Below, one piece after another: positions 7,501-42,347 of a DNA stretch of 64,000 nt. The translations under genes were made by a program, and so were the position numbers. Numbering within the stretch: position 1 is the stretch's first letter; each line of letters opens with the position of its first letter. Source of the stretch: Catenulispora sp. EB89 (GTDB lineage: Bacteria > Actinomycetota > Actinomycetes > Streptomycetales > Catenulisporaceae). The notes beneath the pieces were generated by a model. The model was not told the origin of the DNA. It made no database searches and was given only the letters and a program-made list of their open reading frames with translations. The stretch is taken from NCBI RefSeq assembly GCF_041261445.1, contig NZ_JBGCCU010000042.1, positions 1-64,000 on the forward strand, given 5' to 3'.

Positions 7501-8400
7501 TTACTCGGTAGTCCCGTGCCCCATCCTGCCGTTCGCCGGTATGACGAACACGCCGGTGGCCTCGGCCGTCAGCCGTCCGTCGGCGTAGCAGCGGCTCCAG
7601 CCGTGGATCTTGCGTCCCTCGTGGTGTGAGAATCCGGCCTCGTAGGTGATCTTCGTGTACAGCGGCGTGGCGCGCCGCAGCGTGATCGTCAACGTCCCCG
7701 TATACCCGAACGCTCCCGACGCCCCCTGCGCGCAGCCCATGATCTCGTCGAAGCACGCCGCCACCCACGCCCCGTGCACGCGCCCCGCCGGCCCCTCGTA
7801 CGGCGCCGTGAAGTACGCCTCGCCGCGGATCACCTCGCCGTCGGCCCACATGCGCATCGGCGGGGCCAGGGGGTTGCCGCGGCCGTTGATGGTCGAGCGT
7901 TCCACCAGAAGGGTGTCGTGGCGGCGGGCAAGGCTGGCGTTCACGCCCTCGACGGCGATGTCGGTGCGCGGGATGCGGGGTAGGGCGCCGATACGGTCGG
8001 CCAGGGATTCGACTTCGGCGGCCAGGGCTATGAACCGCGCCGCCCGGTCGGTGTCGGAGCTGGTGCTAGAGCTAGAGCTAGAGCTAGAGCTAGAGCTAGA
8101 GCTAGAGCTAGAGGTAGAGGTAGAGCCGGTGCCGGAATCGGTGTCGGGGCCGGAGTTGGTGCCGGAACCGGTGTAGGAGCCGGTGTCGGAGCCGGAGGTG
8201 CCGTCCGAGTCGGCGCCAGTGCCATTCGCATCGTCGGAGTGGTATCCGACGTCCCCGGTGTCCAGCTGGAAGGCCGCGTCCACCAGCCGCCGCACCTGCT
8301 CGACCAGCCGGTGCTTCGCGACGCGCGCCGCAGACAAGTCCGCCTCGTCCTCGTCCAGCCATGCGCGCCTGATGTCGTCTTTAGAAGCCGCCTCGGTCAT
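7501..8400 (-). CDS. PaaI/4HBT-type hot-dog thioesterase with Ser-rich linker
   Basis: A 299-residue protein with three parts. A charged helical N-terminus covers about 1-50. A low-complexity Gly/Ser/Thr/Asp linker at about 55-118 includes a run of some 20 Ser. A C-terminal hot-dog domain spans about 125-295. GPAGRVHGAWVAACFDEIMG resembles the catalytic helix region of PaaI-type acyl-CoA thioesterases. It probably hydrolyses an acyl-CoA, and a hydratase/ADH/SDR operon lies divergently next door. The poly-Ser stretch is encoded by a perfect hexanucleotide repeat, so linker length can change without a frameshift. Start: ATG 8400 with GGGGAGA 8 nt upstream. Confidence 0.8.
   Translation of the reverse strand: MTEAASKDDIRRAWLDEDEADLSAARVAKHRLVEQVRRLVDAAFQLDTGDVGYHSDDANGTGADSDGTSGSDTGSYTGSGTNSGPDTDSGTGSTSTSSSSSSSSSSSSSSSSTSSDTDRAARFIALAAEVESLADRIGALPRIPRTDIAVEGVNASLARRHDTLLVERSTINGRGNPLAPPMRMWADGEVIRGEAYFTAPYEGPAGRVHGAWVAACFDEIMGCAQGASGAFGYTGTLTITLRRATPLYTKITYEAGFSHHEGRKIHGWSRCYADGRLTAEATGVFVIPANGRMGHGTTE
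8065..8124. repeat. (GCTAGA)8(GGTAGA)2 hexanucleotide repeat inside thioesterase gene
   Basis: Eight perfect copies of GCTAGA (8065-8112) are followed by two GGTAGA copies. On the coding strand they read AGC TCT, giving Ser-Ser. The unit contains CTAG, usually a rare tetranucleotide, and TCT, a rare Ser codon in DNA of this GC content. Confidence 0.95.
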
Positions 8401-8516: not shown

Positions 8517-9374
8517 ATGCCCATCGACCCCGAGAAGGCCTTGGCCGCCCCGGCTACGAGCATCGAGCTGGCCTGGACCCCGAAGGACGTCCAGCTCTAC
8601 CACCTGGGCCTGGGCGCGGGTGTCCCGGCGACCGATCCGGCGGAGCTGGCCTACGTCTACGAGAAGAGCCTCAAGGTTCTGCCGACCTTCGCGGTGGTGG
8701 CCGGCGGCGCGCTGGGCTTCTCGCTGCTCGCCAACCCGGGCATCGACATCCAGCTGGTCAACGTGCTGCACGGCGGCCAGTCGATCACCGTGCACCGCGC
8801 CATCCCGGCCTCCGGGCAGGCCACCGCGACCGCGCGCGTCACCGACGTCTGGGACAAGGGCAAGGCCGCGGTGATCCGCACCGAGAGCGTGATCGCCGAC
8901 GCCGACGGCCCCATCTGGACCAATCACTCGCAGATCTTCGTCCGCGGCGAGGGCGGCTTCGGCGGCGAGCGCGGCCCCTCGACCGTGGACACCACGCCTG
9001 AGCGCGCGCCGGACCACGTCGTCGAGGTGAAGACCCTGGAGCAGCTGGCGCTCATCTACCGGCTGTCCGGGGACTGGAACCCGCTGCACGCCGATCCGGA
9101 GTTCGCCGCGATGGCCGGCTTCGACCGCCCGATCCTGCACGGCCTGTGCTCCTACGGCATCACCTGCAAGGCCGTCGTCGACACCGTCCTGGCTGGCGAC
9201 GTGACGCGGGTGACGGAGTACTCCACGCGCTTCGCCGGGATCTTCTTCCCCGGCGAGACCATGCGCGTGCAGATGTGGGACGACGGCGCGGGCCGCGTGG
9301 ACGTCGTGTCCACCTCGGCCGAGCGCGACGACGCCGTGGTGCTGGCCAACACCGTGCTGACCTACAAGCCCTAG
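8517..9374 (+). CDS. MaoC-type enoyl-CoA hydratase 2
   Basis: A 285-residue double hot-dog protein of the hydratase-2/MaoC family, which adds water to trans-2-enoyl-CoA to give the (R)-3-hydroxyacyl-CoA. The hydratase-2 signature YRLSGDWNPLHADPEFA lies at about 180-196, supplying the catalytic Asp and His, and is followed by DRPILHG. The N-terminal half is the non-catalytic hot-dog. It corresponds to the hydratase part of peroxisomal multifunctional enzyme 2, whose dehydrogenase counterpart could be the SDR at 10572. GAAGGGA 8 nt upstream supports ATG 8517. Likely first gene of the 8517-11477 unit. Confidence 0.9.
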   Translation: MPIDPEKALAAPATSIELAWTPKDVQLYHLGLGAGVPATDPAELAYVYEKSLKVLPTFAVVAGGALGFSLLANPGIDIQLVNVLHGGQSITVHRAIPASGQATATARVTDVWDKGKAAVIRTESVIADADGPIWTNHSQIFVRGEGGFGGERGPSTVDTTPERAPDHVVEVKTLEQLALIYRLSGDWNPLHADPEFAAMAGFDRPILHGLCSYGITCKAVVDTVLAGDVTRVTEYSTRFAGIFFPGETMRVQMWDDGAGRVDVVSTSAERDDAVVLANTVLTYKP

Positions 9375-37957: not shown

Positions 37958-38983
37958 ATGGGTTCTGCCGAAGCGCACGTGGAAGCCGGGGGTCGCAGTG
38001 TCCGGATCTCCTCACCGGACAAGCTGCTTTTCCCCGATGCCGGCGTCACCAAACTCGACCTCGCCACGTACTACGCGACCGTCGCCGACGGTCTGTTCCG
38101 CGGCCTGGCCAGGCGCCCGGTCGCGCTGAACCGCTTCCCGGACGGCCTGGGCGGCAAGTCGTTCTTCACCAAGTCCGCGCCGAAGGGGTTCCCGGACTGG
38201 GCCTCGACCGCCCGGGTCACCTTCCCCAGCGGCCGCACCGGCGACGAGGTGTGCGTCACCGAGCCGGCCACCGTGCTGTGGACGGTGCAGATGGGCACGC
38301 TGGAGCTGCACGCCTGGCCGGTCCGCGACGACGACACCGACCACCCCGACGAGCTGCGCATCGACCTGGACCCGCAGCCCGGCACCGACTTCGCCGAGGC
38401 GGTGGAGGTCGCGCGCCAGGCGCAGGCGCTGTTCGAGGAGCTCGGCATCCGGCCGTTCGTGAAGACCTCCGGCGGCCGCGGCCTGCACCTGCTGGTCCGC
38501 ATCGAACCGCGCTGGACGTTCGTCGAGGCGCGCCGCGCGGTGATCGCCCTGGCCCGCGAGCTGGAGCGGCGCCGCCCGGAGCTGGTGACCACGTCGTGGT
38601 GGAAGGAGGAGCGCGGCGAGCGCATCTTCATCGACTTCAACCAGATGGCCCGCGACCGGATGACCGTCGCCCCCTACTCCACGCGGGCCCGGCCGGACGC
38701 CCCGGTGTCGATGCCGGTGCGCTGGGCCGACCTCGGCGACGTGGCGCCCGGGGACTTCACGGTGCAGACCGTCCCGGACCTGCTGGCCAAGAACGGCGAC
38801 GCCAACGCCGAGATCGACGACGTCGCGCACAGCCTGGACGCGCTGCTGGAGATGGCCGACCGCGACGAGAAGGACCGGGGCCTGGGCGACCTGCCGTACC
38901 CGCCGGACTTCCCGAAGATGCCCGGGGAGCCCAAGCGCGTGCAGCCCTCCAAGGCCCGCAACGACCAGGAAGAAGGGAGCTGA
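37958..38983 (+). CDS. LigD-like NHEJ polymerase domain protein
   Basis: A 341-residue stand-alone primase-polymerase of the LigD PolDom family, which fills gaps with preference for ribonucleotides in non-homologous end joining. Visible motifs: SSPDKLLFPD, YATVADGLFRGLARRPVALN, the catalytic pair in ELRIDLDPQPG (DxD), and VKTSGGRGLHLLVRIEP with the HLL nucleotide-binding His. The third Asp lies in FIDFNQMARDRMTVAPYS. The gene is one base from the ligase at 38985, forming a two-gene operon. No Ku gene is in the window. Confidence 0.92.
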   Translation: MGSAEAHVEAGGRSVRISSPDKLLFPDAGVTKLDLATYYATVADGLFRGLARRPVALNRFPDGLGGKSFFTKSAPKGFPDWASTARVTFPSGRTGDEVCVTEPATVLWTVQMGTLELHAWPVRDDDTDHPDELRIDLDPQPGTDFAEAVEVARQAQALFEELGIRPFVKTSGGRGLHLLVRIEPRWTFVEARRAVIALARELERRRPELVTTSWWKEERGERIFIDFNQMARDRMTVAPYSTRARPDAPVSMPVRWADLGDVAPGDFTVQTVPDLLAKNGDANAEIDDVAHSLDALLEMADRDEKDRGLGDLPYPPDFPKMPGEPKRVQPSKARNDQEEGS

Positions 38984-38984
38984 C

Positions 38985-40103
38985 ATGGCCGGCAAGTCCG
39001 ACGACGCCGCCCAGCCCGCCCTCGACCTGCCCGTGCTGCCCCCGGTCGAACCGATGCTGTCCAAGTCCGCGGCCAAGGTCCCCACTGGCGACTACCTCTA
39101 CGAGCCGAAATGGGACGGCTACCGCTGCATCGTCTTCCGCGACGGCGACCACGTCGTCCTCGGCAGCCGCGGCGGCAAGGAGCTGAGCCGGTACTTCCCG
39201 GAGCTGGTCGAGTCGCTGAAAGCGGCGCTGCCGGCCAAGTGCGTCGTGGACGGCGAGATCGTGGTCGTCGTGGACCACCGGCTGGACTTCGACCGGCTCA
39301 GCGACCGCATCCACCCCGCGGCCTCCCGCGTGAAGCTGCTCGCCGAGCGCACCCCGGCCTCCTTCATCGGCTTCGACCTGCTGGCGCTGGGTGACCGCGA
39401 CCTGACCGGCCAGCCGTTCACCGCCCGCCGCTCCGCGCTCCTGGAATCGGTGTCAGAGCACGAACACGTGCACGTCACCCGCGCCACCGACGACCCCAAG
39501 CTGGCCACGACCTGGTTCCAGCGCTTCGAGGGCGCGGGCCTGGACGGCGTGGTCGCCAAGCCGGCGCAGGGTCCTTACACGCCCGGTGAGCGCAGCATGG
39601 TGAAGATCAAGCACGAGCGCACCGCGGACGTGGTCGTCGCCGGCTACCGGCTGCACAAGACCGGCCCGATCGTCGGATCCCTGATGCTCGGGCTGTACGG
39701 CGAGGACGGCGTGCTCAACTACGTCGGCGGATCCAGCGCCTTCACCATGGCGCGCCGCAAGGAGCTGATCGATGAGCTCGCGCCGTACGTGGCGGCCGAG
39801 GGCGAGCCGCATCCGTGGCTCGACGCCGCGGGCGAAGGCGACGGCGACGCCGCGGGCGCCGACGGCGACGACGCGCACCGCCGCCCCGGCACCCTGAACC
39901 GCTGGAACGCGGGCAAGGACGTGTCGTTCATCGCGCTGCGTCCCGAACTGGTCTGCGAGGTGCACTACGACCAGCTGCAGGGCGACCGGTTCCGGCACAA
40001 CGGGCGTTTCGTGCGCTGGCGGCCGGACCGCGACCCGAAGTCGTGCTCGTACGACCAGCTGGACGTGCCGACCGCCTACGACCTCGCGGACGTCTTCGGC
40101 TAG
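38985..40103 (+). CDS. ATP-dependent DNA ligase (LigC-like)
   Basis: A 372-residue ATP-dependent DNA ligase. Motif I YEPKWDGYRCIVF (about 39-51) contains the adenylated Lys. SRGGKELSRYFPEL is motif Ia/III-like, VVDGEIVVV motif III, FIGFDLLAL motif IIIa, GLDGVVAKP motif IV and SMVKIKHERTADVV motif V. The C-terminal OB domain covers about 215-372, with a GEGDGDAAGADGDD acidic insertion (about 284-297). Length and order match mycobacterial LigC rather than full LigD. The pair with the polymerase recalls the Rv3730c/Rv3731 arrangement. Seals nicks, probably in backup end-joining repair. Confidence 0.93.
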   Translation: MAGKSDDAAQPALDLPVLPPVEPMLSKSAAKVPTGDYLYEPKWDGYRCIVFRDGDHVVLGSRGGKELSRYFPELVESLKAALPAKCVVDGEIVVVVDHRLDFDRLSDRIHPAASRVKLLAERTPASFIGFDLLALGDRDLTGQPFTARRSALLESVSEHEHVHVTRATDDPKLATTWFQRFEGAGLDGVVAKPAQGPYTPGERSMVKIKHERTADVVVAGYRLHKTGPIVGSLMLGLYGEDGVLNYVGGSSAFTMARRKELIDELAPYVAAEGEPHPWLDAAGEGDGDAAGADGDDAHRRPGTLNRWNAGKDVSFIALRPELVCEVHYDQLQGDRFRHNGRFVRWRPDRDPKSCSYDQLDVPTAYDLADVFG

Positions 40104-41070: not shown

Positions 41071-41418
41071 GTGCGGATCGACCTGTCGGTACAGGGTGGC
41101 GAGCCGGGCGGGGAACTGGCGGAGCTGGCGGACTGGCTCGCTCAGGAAGACGAGCTCCGCGGCCTGGTCAAGCCGGCGCCGGCGGTCCCCGCCGCCCGGG
41201 AGCTGGGGGTGTCCTCCGACGTGCTGGTGGCCGCCGTCGGCAGCGGCGGCGCGGTCAGCGTGCTGGCCGCGTCCCTGAAGGCGTTCCTTTCCCAGCCGCG
41301 CCGGTCCGACGTCACGATCGTGCTGACCGCTCCGGACGGACGCCGGGTGGAGGTCGACGCCAAGCGGGTCCGCGACGTCGAGGCGCTGGTGCGCCAGGTC
41401 TGCGGCGAGGTGGAATGA
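41071..41418 (+). CDS. Effector-associated constant component EACC1
   Basis: A 115-residue protein matching the EACC1 family described from comparative genomics of biological-conflict systems, a small constant partner encoded beside variable effectors such as caspases. It reads ELAELADWLAQEDELRGLVK, then a GSGGAVSVLAASLKAFLSQP helix and VTIVLTAPDGRRVEVDAKRV. GGGGAGGG 6-7 nt upstream supports GTG 41071. Its stop overlaps the next ATG (ATGA), the normal coupling to the caspase gene. Itself it looks intact, although its effector gene is broken. Confidence 0.82.
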   Translation: MRIDLSVQGGEPGGELAELADWLAQEDELRGLVKPAPAVPAARELGVSSDVLVAAVGSGGAVSVLAASLKAFLSQPRRSDVTIVLTAPDGRRVEVDAKRVRDVEALVRQVCGEVE

Positions 41419-42347
41419 ACGACGTGCGCCGCGTGGACCCGGCTCGCTCCCGGATCGTCCTGGTCGGCGTCGAGTCGTACACCGACGCGCTCATCCCCGA
41501 CGAGCCGGCGATCGCCAACAACGTCGCCGATCTCACCGAGGTGCTGACCGATCCGGCTCTGGGCGCCTTCGACCCCGGGCACCTGCTGGTCGCACCGGAC
41601 GGCGCCGGGGTCGAGGGCGGTGGCGAAGGCGGTGGCCGTGATCGACCGGCCCCGGGCCGCCAGGCTGGTCGACGAAGCCGCGATGATCGCCCGCAAGCTC
41701 AAGGACGAGCTGACGCAGGTCGAGCTCCTGGTCATGATCGCCGAAGCGGCGTCCGCCGGTGATCCCGGCCGGGCCTCGGAGCTGGTCGGGGAGGCCGAGG
41801 CGATCGCCCGCGCCATCCTCGACGAGTCGTCGAAGGGGTGGGCGTTGGCCGCGATCGCCGAAGCGGTGGCCAGGAACGAACCGAACCGGAGCGTGGGCAT
41901 CGCCCGCGGCGTGACCGACGCGCCGGCGAAGATCTCCGCCCTGGTCAAGGTAGCGGCGGTGATCGGCGCCCACCACCCGGGCCGGGCTTCGAAACTGCTC
42001 GGCGAGGCCGCGGCGATCGCCCAGGAGTCGATCGAGGAATCGGCGCACGTGCAGGCGCTGACCACGGTCGCGACGGCAATGGCCGCGAGCGACGCCGAAC
42101 GGGCCTCGACGCTGCTCGGGACCGCCGAGACCATCGCGCGCGCCATCGCCGACCCGTCGGCGAAAGCGTCCGCGCTGGCCGAGGTCGCGCAGGCGGCGGC
42201 CGCGAGCGATCTGGACCGGGCCGAGGCGATCGCCTACTCCATCACCGACCCGCGGCCGCACGCGTGGGGCACGGCATCACCGACAGCTCGGCGAAGGCGT
42301 GGGCGTTGACCGAGATCACCATGGTGCGGCTGCGGTTGAGTTCCTGA
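41415..42347 (+). pseudogene. Broken EACC1-associated caspase with helical-repeat tail
   Basis: The frame from ATG 41415 gives VDPARSRIVLVGVESYTDAL and NNVADLTEVLTDPALGAFD, the start of a caspase-like (C14) domain of the EACC1-associated type. It then becomes meaningless after about 41610. Another frame (41620-42260) encodes at least five ~39-residue alpha-helical repeats (RASELVGEAEAIARAILDES, RASTLLGTAETIARAIADPS), and a third frame ends the array (ITDSSAKAWALTEI, stop 42347). The catalytic His and Cys regions of the caspase are missing. At least one deletion and two frame changes have destroyed a long effector gene. Confidence 0.75.

Follow-up and report, generated by a model that had tools for sequence, protein, structure and literature searches.

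The closest described relatives of the locus analyzed here are the EACC1-caspase systems designated 'System 4' by Kaur et al. (2020, eLife 9:e52696; PMC7159879). That paper presents System 4 as a two-gene conflict system in which EACC1 is the 5' gene and a caspase with a variable C-terminal part is the 3' gene. The authors suggested that it senses at the membrane and works through auto-proteolysis, and EACC1 was described, as a sequence-based suggestion, with a single conserved TM helix (PMC7159879). The EACC1-caspase system is also referred to in a later paper (Kaur et al., 2021; PMC8195603). No experiment on such a system was encountered among the titles and abstract openings found, a literature in which subscription journals are thinly covered.

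The window, i.e., the whole 64,000-nt stretch of DNA that was analyzed, comprises positions 1-64,000 of contig NZ_JBGCCU010000042.1 of Catenulispora sp. EB89 (GCF_041261445.1), a genome of 11.9 Mb available as a 70-contig draft. It was compared with the EACC1-caspase-repeat locus of Catenulispora rubra DSM 44948 (genome G004, locus L010/L013; the G004 effector shares 100% identity with a protein labelled Catenulispora rubra) and with that of a second genome, G009 (L011), which served as the outgroup for polarizing changes. The original prediction of an EACC1-caspase conflict system that has decayed but retains an intact EACC1 gene is supported by profile searches and by the intact ortholog that C. 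rubra carries at the corresponding position: the locus very probably represents the remains of such a two-gene system, in which the protease is dead through two deletions and EACC1 is a leftover.

An intact EACC1 gene

The EACC1 gene (41071-41418, forward strand, as are all features of the locus) has a GTG start, encodes 115 aa and ends with TGA. Its product matches PF19953 at 99.1 bits (E = 1.7e-28; cut-off 23.6) over model positions 3-103 of 107, and is 92-93% identical to the protein of C. rubra and 81-83% identical to the G009 ortholog; the full length of 115 codons, this score and the 93% identity to the C. rubra ortholog agree with the earlier view that the gene is intact. The protein was matched in 6 of 10 genomes of the genus, its own included (E <= 0.001), with C. 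rubra and G009 giving the two best matches elsewhere. EACC1 lies 5' of and directly adjacent to the effector, the ATG of which (41415) overlaps the EACC1 TGA in the predicted ATGA motif (41415-41418). The overlap is shared with G009, whereas in C. rubra it is replaced by a 17-bp tandem duplication between the genes (L010 6321-6354).

An AlphaFold2 model of EACC1 (pLDDT 79), for which the window protein was aligned with 84 of the 120 homologs listed, has an alpha+beta layout with strands at residues 2-8, 33-36, 51-55, 82-86 and 92-96 and helices at 14-24, 59-73 and 97-111. The longest helix spans 15 residues, and no helix of TM length is present in the model, which gave only weak matches to the PDB.

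Remnants of the caspase effector

Three pieces of the effector follow EACC1. The first (41415-41616) retains the start codon and residues 1-67 of the caspase domain, is 93% identical to C. rubra and matches NF047832 ('caspase, EACC1-associated type') at positions 1-49 of 211 only (E = 6.9e-10, 38.8 bits; cut-off 140). The profile matches of EACC1 and of this caspase remnant are far beyond chance and support both family assignments. A member of the two-gene system is expected to carry an N-terminal NF047832 caspase domain with catalytic His and Cys, and the window effector has neither residue: His91 and Cys142 are invariant in a 44-sequence alignment, and ortholog residues 68-395, which carry both, are absent from the window, as expected from the predicted loss of the His/Cys core. 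Translation from the effector ATG yields an open frame (41415-41762) of the 67 caspase residues followed by 48 out-of-frame residues, with a TGA at 41760.

The second piece (41617-42266) consists of helical repeats. It aligns ungapped with L010 from position 7531 at 92% DNA identity, and its 215 codons from 41617 are 86% identical to C. rubra residues 396-610. With the effector ATG as reference they are read in frame +1, so that the variable C-terminal part is out of frame with the caspase. The open-reading-frame list gives a 229-aa frame with a GTG start in this region (41620-42309). Inspection by eye shows the repeat unit of about 39 residues that had been noted, both in the alignment and in the way the helices of a C. 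rubra model are spaced, with units of about 32 residues interspersed; searches of the two repeat frames against Pfam and NCBIfam profiles gave no credible match. The third piece (42267-42347) holds the last 27 codons, including the ancestral stop (TGA, 42345-42347), is 94% identical in DNA to L010 8455-8535 and is in the frame of the effector ATG. The earlier reading that the repeat array continues in two further frames thus applies to the repeats, which are out of frame at +1, but not to the tail, which has returned to the original frame.

Two deletions, probably on the branch of the window

The syntenic ortholog in C. rubra has the same neighbors on both sides, an EACC1 gene that is 93% identical and effector pieces that are 93% and 86% identical; in contrast to the window, its effector is an intact caspase-repeat protein of 729 residues. 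Comparison of the two loci, as had been proposed, revealed two deletions. At the first junction (41616/41617), blastn offsets against L010 show that 983 bp of the C. rubra sequence are missing, encoding residues 68-395 with His91 and Cys142. At the second (42260-42267), the offset changes from L010 8174 at 42260 to 8455 at 42267, with a loss of approximately 274 bp of repeats, or about 91 repeat residues. The deletions correspond to 3 x 327 + 2 and 3 x 91 + 1 bases, respectively, and because they sum to a multiple of three, the first frame is restored in the tail but not in the intervening repeats. No further frameshift occurs between them, the 644-base repeat alignment being ungapped. Two genes upstream of the deletions, the window encodes a LigD-type primase-polymerase and an ATP-dependent DNA ligase (37997-40103), which are parts of an end-joining system; their proximity is probably a coincidence.

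In an eight-row tree of the retained pieces, the window is sister to C. rubra with support of 87/89, a value not starred by the tool. The other seven rows, the nearest effectors found, are all full length (726-738 residues), which best places the loss on the window's own branch. Between the intact copies of C. rubra and G009, dN/dS is 0.76 for the repeats, 0.44 for the part removed by the first deletion and 0.24 for EACC1, and such fast evolution of the repeats is as expected of a variable sensing part. Upstream of EACC1 in G009, only the 3' end of a metallophosphoesterase gene matches, beside a different LysR gene; a rearrangement has its breakpoint here (L011 ~9035-9080), bordering the system. 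Another gene of the EACC1-associated caspase type, on contig 27 of G009 (L049 1928-2458), has an in-frame TGA and leaves the end of the model unmatched.

Timing of the loss and selection on EACC1

Synonymous and nonsynonymous changes were polarized with G009; the numbers are low, a simple codon model was used and the effector pieces change rapidly in any case. For EACC1, 7 synonymous and 4 nonsynonymous changes fall on the window branch, against 9 and 4 for C. rubra; the corresponding figures for the retained effector pieces are 15 and 16 (window) and 11 and 16 (C. rubra). On the window branch, both EACC1 (P = 0.016) and the dead effector pieces (P = 0.0095) depart from neutrality, with the same residual constraint (Fisher P = 0.49). 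The effector pieces do not differ between the two branches (Fisher P = 0.61). Since the window thus shows no additional relaxation of these pieces compared with its intact sister, a late date for the deletions is probable, and EACC1 would be expected to be still intact even if selection did not maintain it. Likewise, the equal constraint of EACC1 and the dead pieces weakly suggests a recent loss. On the C. rubra branch, EACC1 departs from neutrality (P = 0.0027), but neither the repeats nor the caspase part, both intact there, does so (P = 0.20 for each), which makes the constraint of the dead pieces a weak yardstick for timing.

These comparisons do not demonstrate the proposed purging of a toxic or costly effector with retention of EACC1: the lesions are two deletions, and EACC1 and the dead pieces are equally constrained. 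Nevertheless, purifying selection on EACC1 along the window branch is evidence against an idle gene, and its continued use is possible. Selection might maintain EACC1 as a gene that functions on its own, either as an immunity-like or dominant-negative partner or as an in-trans regulator of other caspases, in agreement with its intact frame and with window-branch changes that are mostly synonymous (7 of 11). Furthermore, the genome carries two other genes of the EACC1-associated caspase type above the cut-off (C14 and C32; 161.9 and 160.4 bits) that could be regulated in this way. This explanation is unlikely, as the dead pieces offer no contrast to EACC1 and the other two caspases have small upstream genes of their own, of 124 and 158 aa, whose likeness to EACC1 was judged by eye only (reverse strand; L052 5409-5783 and L053 5141-5617, each upstream of an NF047832-type caspase). 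The only other PF19953 match in the genome is marginal, lying 0.7 bits above the cut-off, contains an internal stop and spans unrelated frames. By eye, both caspases with such upstream frames continue into helicase-like sequence.

Lone and diverged EACC1 genes in the order

A survey of 118 genomes of the order yielded EACC1 matches in 64, with 101 matches in total, 88 of which have a listed caspase match within 3 kb; EACC1 lies behind the caspase in two cases (G081 and G021). At 40 bits or more, a line chosen by the authors, 6 of 73 matches lack a listed caspase. These six, together with 11 other odd or weak matches, were searched again with models built in this analysis. EACC1 stands beside a broken caspase in G054 (L015; positions 3-51 and 47-122 of 225, split over two frames, with no match beyond them) and in G063 (L023; positions 8-43 and 48-225 in two frames), although G063 is a draft genome in which the frameshift is possibly a sequencing error. 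Partial EACC1 matches accompany a broken caspase at G024 C13 and G010 C9. With the same models, no caspase was found at the EACC1 loci of G105 (L016) and G013 (L018) or beside the partial EACC1 matches of G024 C9, G022 C30 and G062. The G013 locus contains, in a single 200-aa frame (L018 540-1142), an EACC1 domain with a C-terminal extension and no caspase found nearby. Since the survey contains a few loci with broken caspases, decay of this kind appears to be neither unique nor common.

In a broader version of the selected-gene explanation, selection would have retained the lone EACC1 after its protease was lost, and the protein would serve in trans as a brake on, or a decoy for, other caspases or invading EACC1-caspase systems. 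Such an orphan antidote would have had several independent origins (the window, G054 and G063); we consider this quite improbable. Conversely, 65 caspase matches have no accompanying EACC1 match, a number that is not a fair count of EACC1-less caspases, and none of the 20 of these 65 loci that were searched gave an EACC1 match at E < 0.05. A small upstream frame with an EACC1-like layout is nonetheless visible by eye at 13 of 14 loci (L038-L051) and at none of six others (L032-L037). Small upstream frames of this type may be diverged EACC1 genes that fall below the Pfam threshold.

Fate of the repeats and authenticity of the deletions

The deletions could instead have made a new short gene, if the 229-aa frame at 41620-42309 were translated alone as a stand-alone repeat protein. 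It is open over 229 codons and its repeats are 86% identical to those of C. rubra, but its GTG sits at the deletion junction with no ribosome site evident by eye, and beyond the second junction it runs on out of register to 42309. Its share of nonsynonymous changes (15 of 27 on the window branch) resembles the 11 of 18 of the C. rubra branch and says nothing for a new use. A stand-alone gene is accordingly very unlikely.

Least credible is an assembly artefact, in which both deletions would be false joins: the genome is a draft of 70 contigs and the second junction sits inside a repeat array, but the C. rubra ends at the first junction have by eye at most a few bases in common, making k-mer collapse unlikely, and a search of the assembly for another copy of the lost DNA found none (scoring covered 40 of the 1026 first-look candidates; three other matches of 29, 32 and 46 bases), both of which speak against assembly collapse or misjoining, and the lengths of 983 and ~274 bp are multiples of neither 3 nor the 117-bp repeat unit.

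A decayed system and its intact counterparts

The well-bounded pseudogenization of a known conflict system is real and probably recent, and it looks like ordinary gene loss. In relatives, the intact form consists of EACC1 followed directly by a partner that has a caspase-fold protease at its N terminus and an array of helical repeats at its C terminus. The fast-evolving repeats would sense or bind a target derived from an invader or from the cell, EACC1 would regulate the caspase, and the released protease would cleave the partner itself or other proteins, containing infection. Two deletions, most likely made once the lineages of the window and C. rubra had separated, removed the catalytic core, the linker and part of the repeats, leaving the remaining repeats out of frame. 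The protease function is gone, and beyond EACC1 the operon is expected to give a 115-residue fragment at most. EACC1 itself is most likely a passive leftover that has yet to decay, presumably idle since a presumably late event.

The locus provides a base-level record of how one lineage loses an EACC1-caspase system of which its relatives still carry full-length copies, and such strains represent natural controls for the role of EACC1 without its protease. Selection-driven retention of EACC1 is possible; if true, it would point to a role as a brake, which the published sensor-activates-caspase model does not predict.

The window locus is a decayed member of the published system (Kaur et al., 2020). 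Like System 4, it is found in an actinobacterial host and has a 5' EACC1 gene followed directly by the start of an EACC1-associated caspase and by a C-terminal variable part, here helical repeats. The AlphaFold2 model of its EACC1 protein contains no long membrane helix, apparently at odds with the TM suggestion in PMC7159879. Unlike System 4 as described there, its caspase His/Cys core is deleted and its repeats are out of frame, and EACC1 is the only component that is intact.
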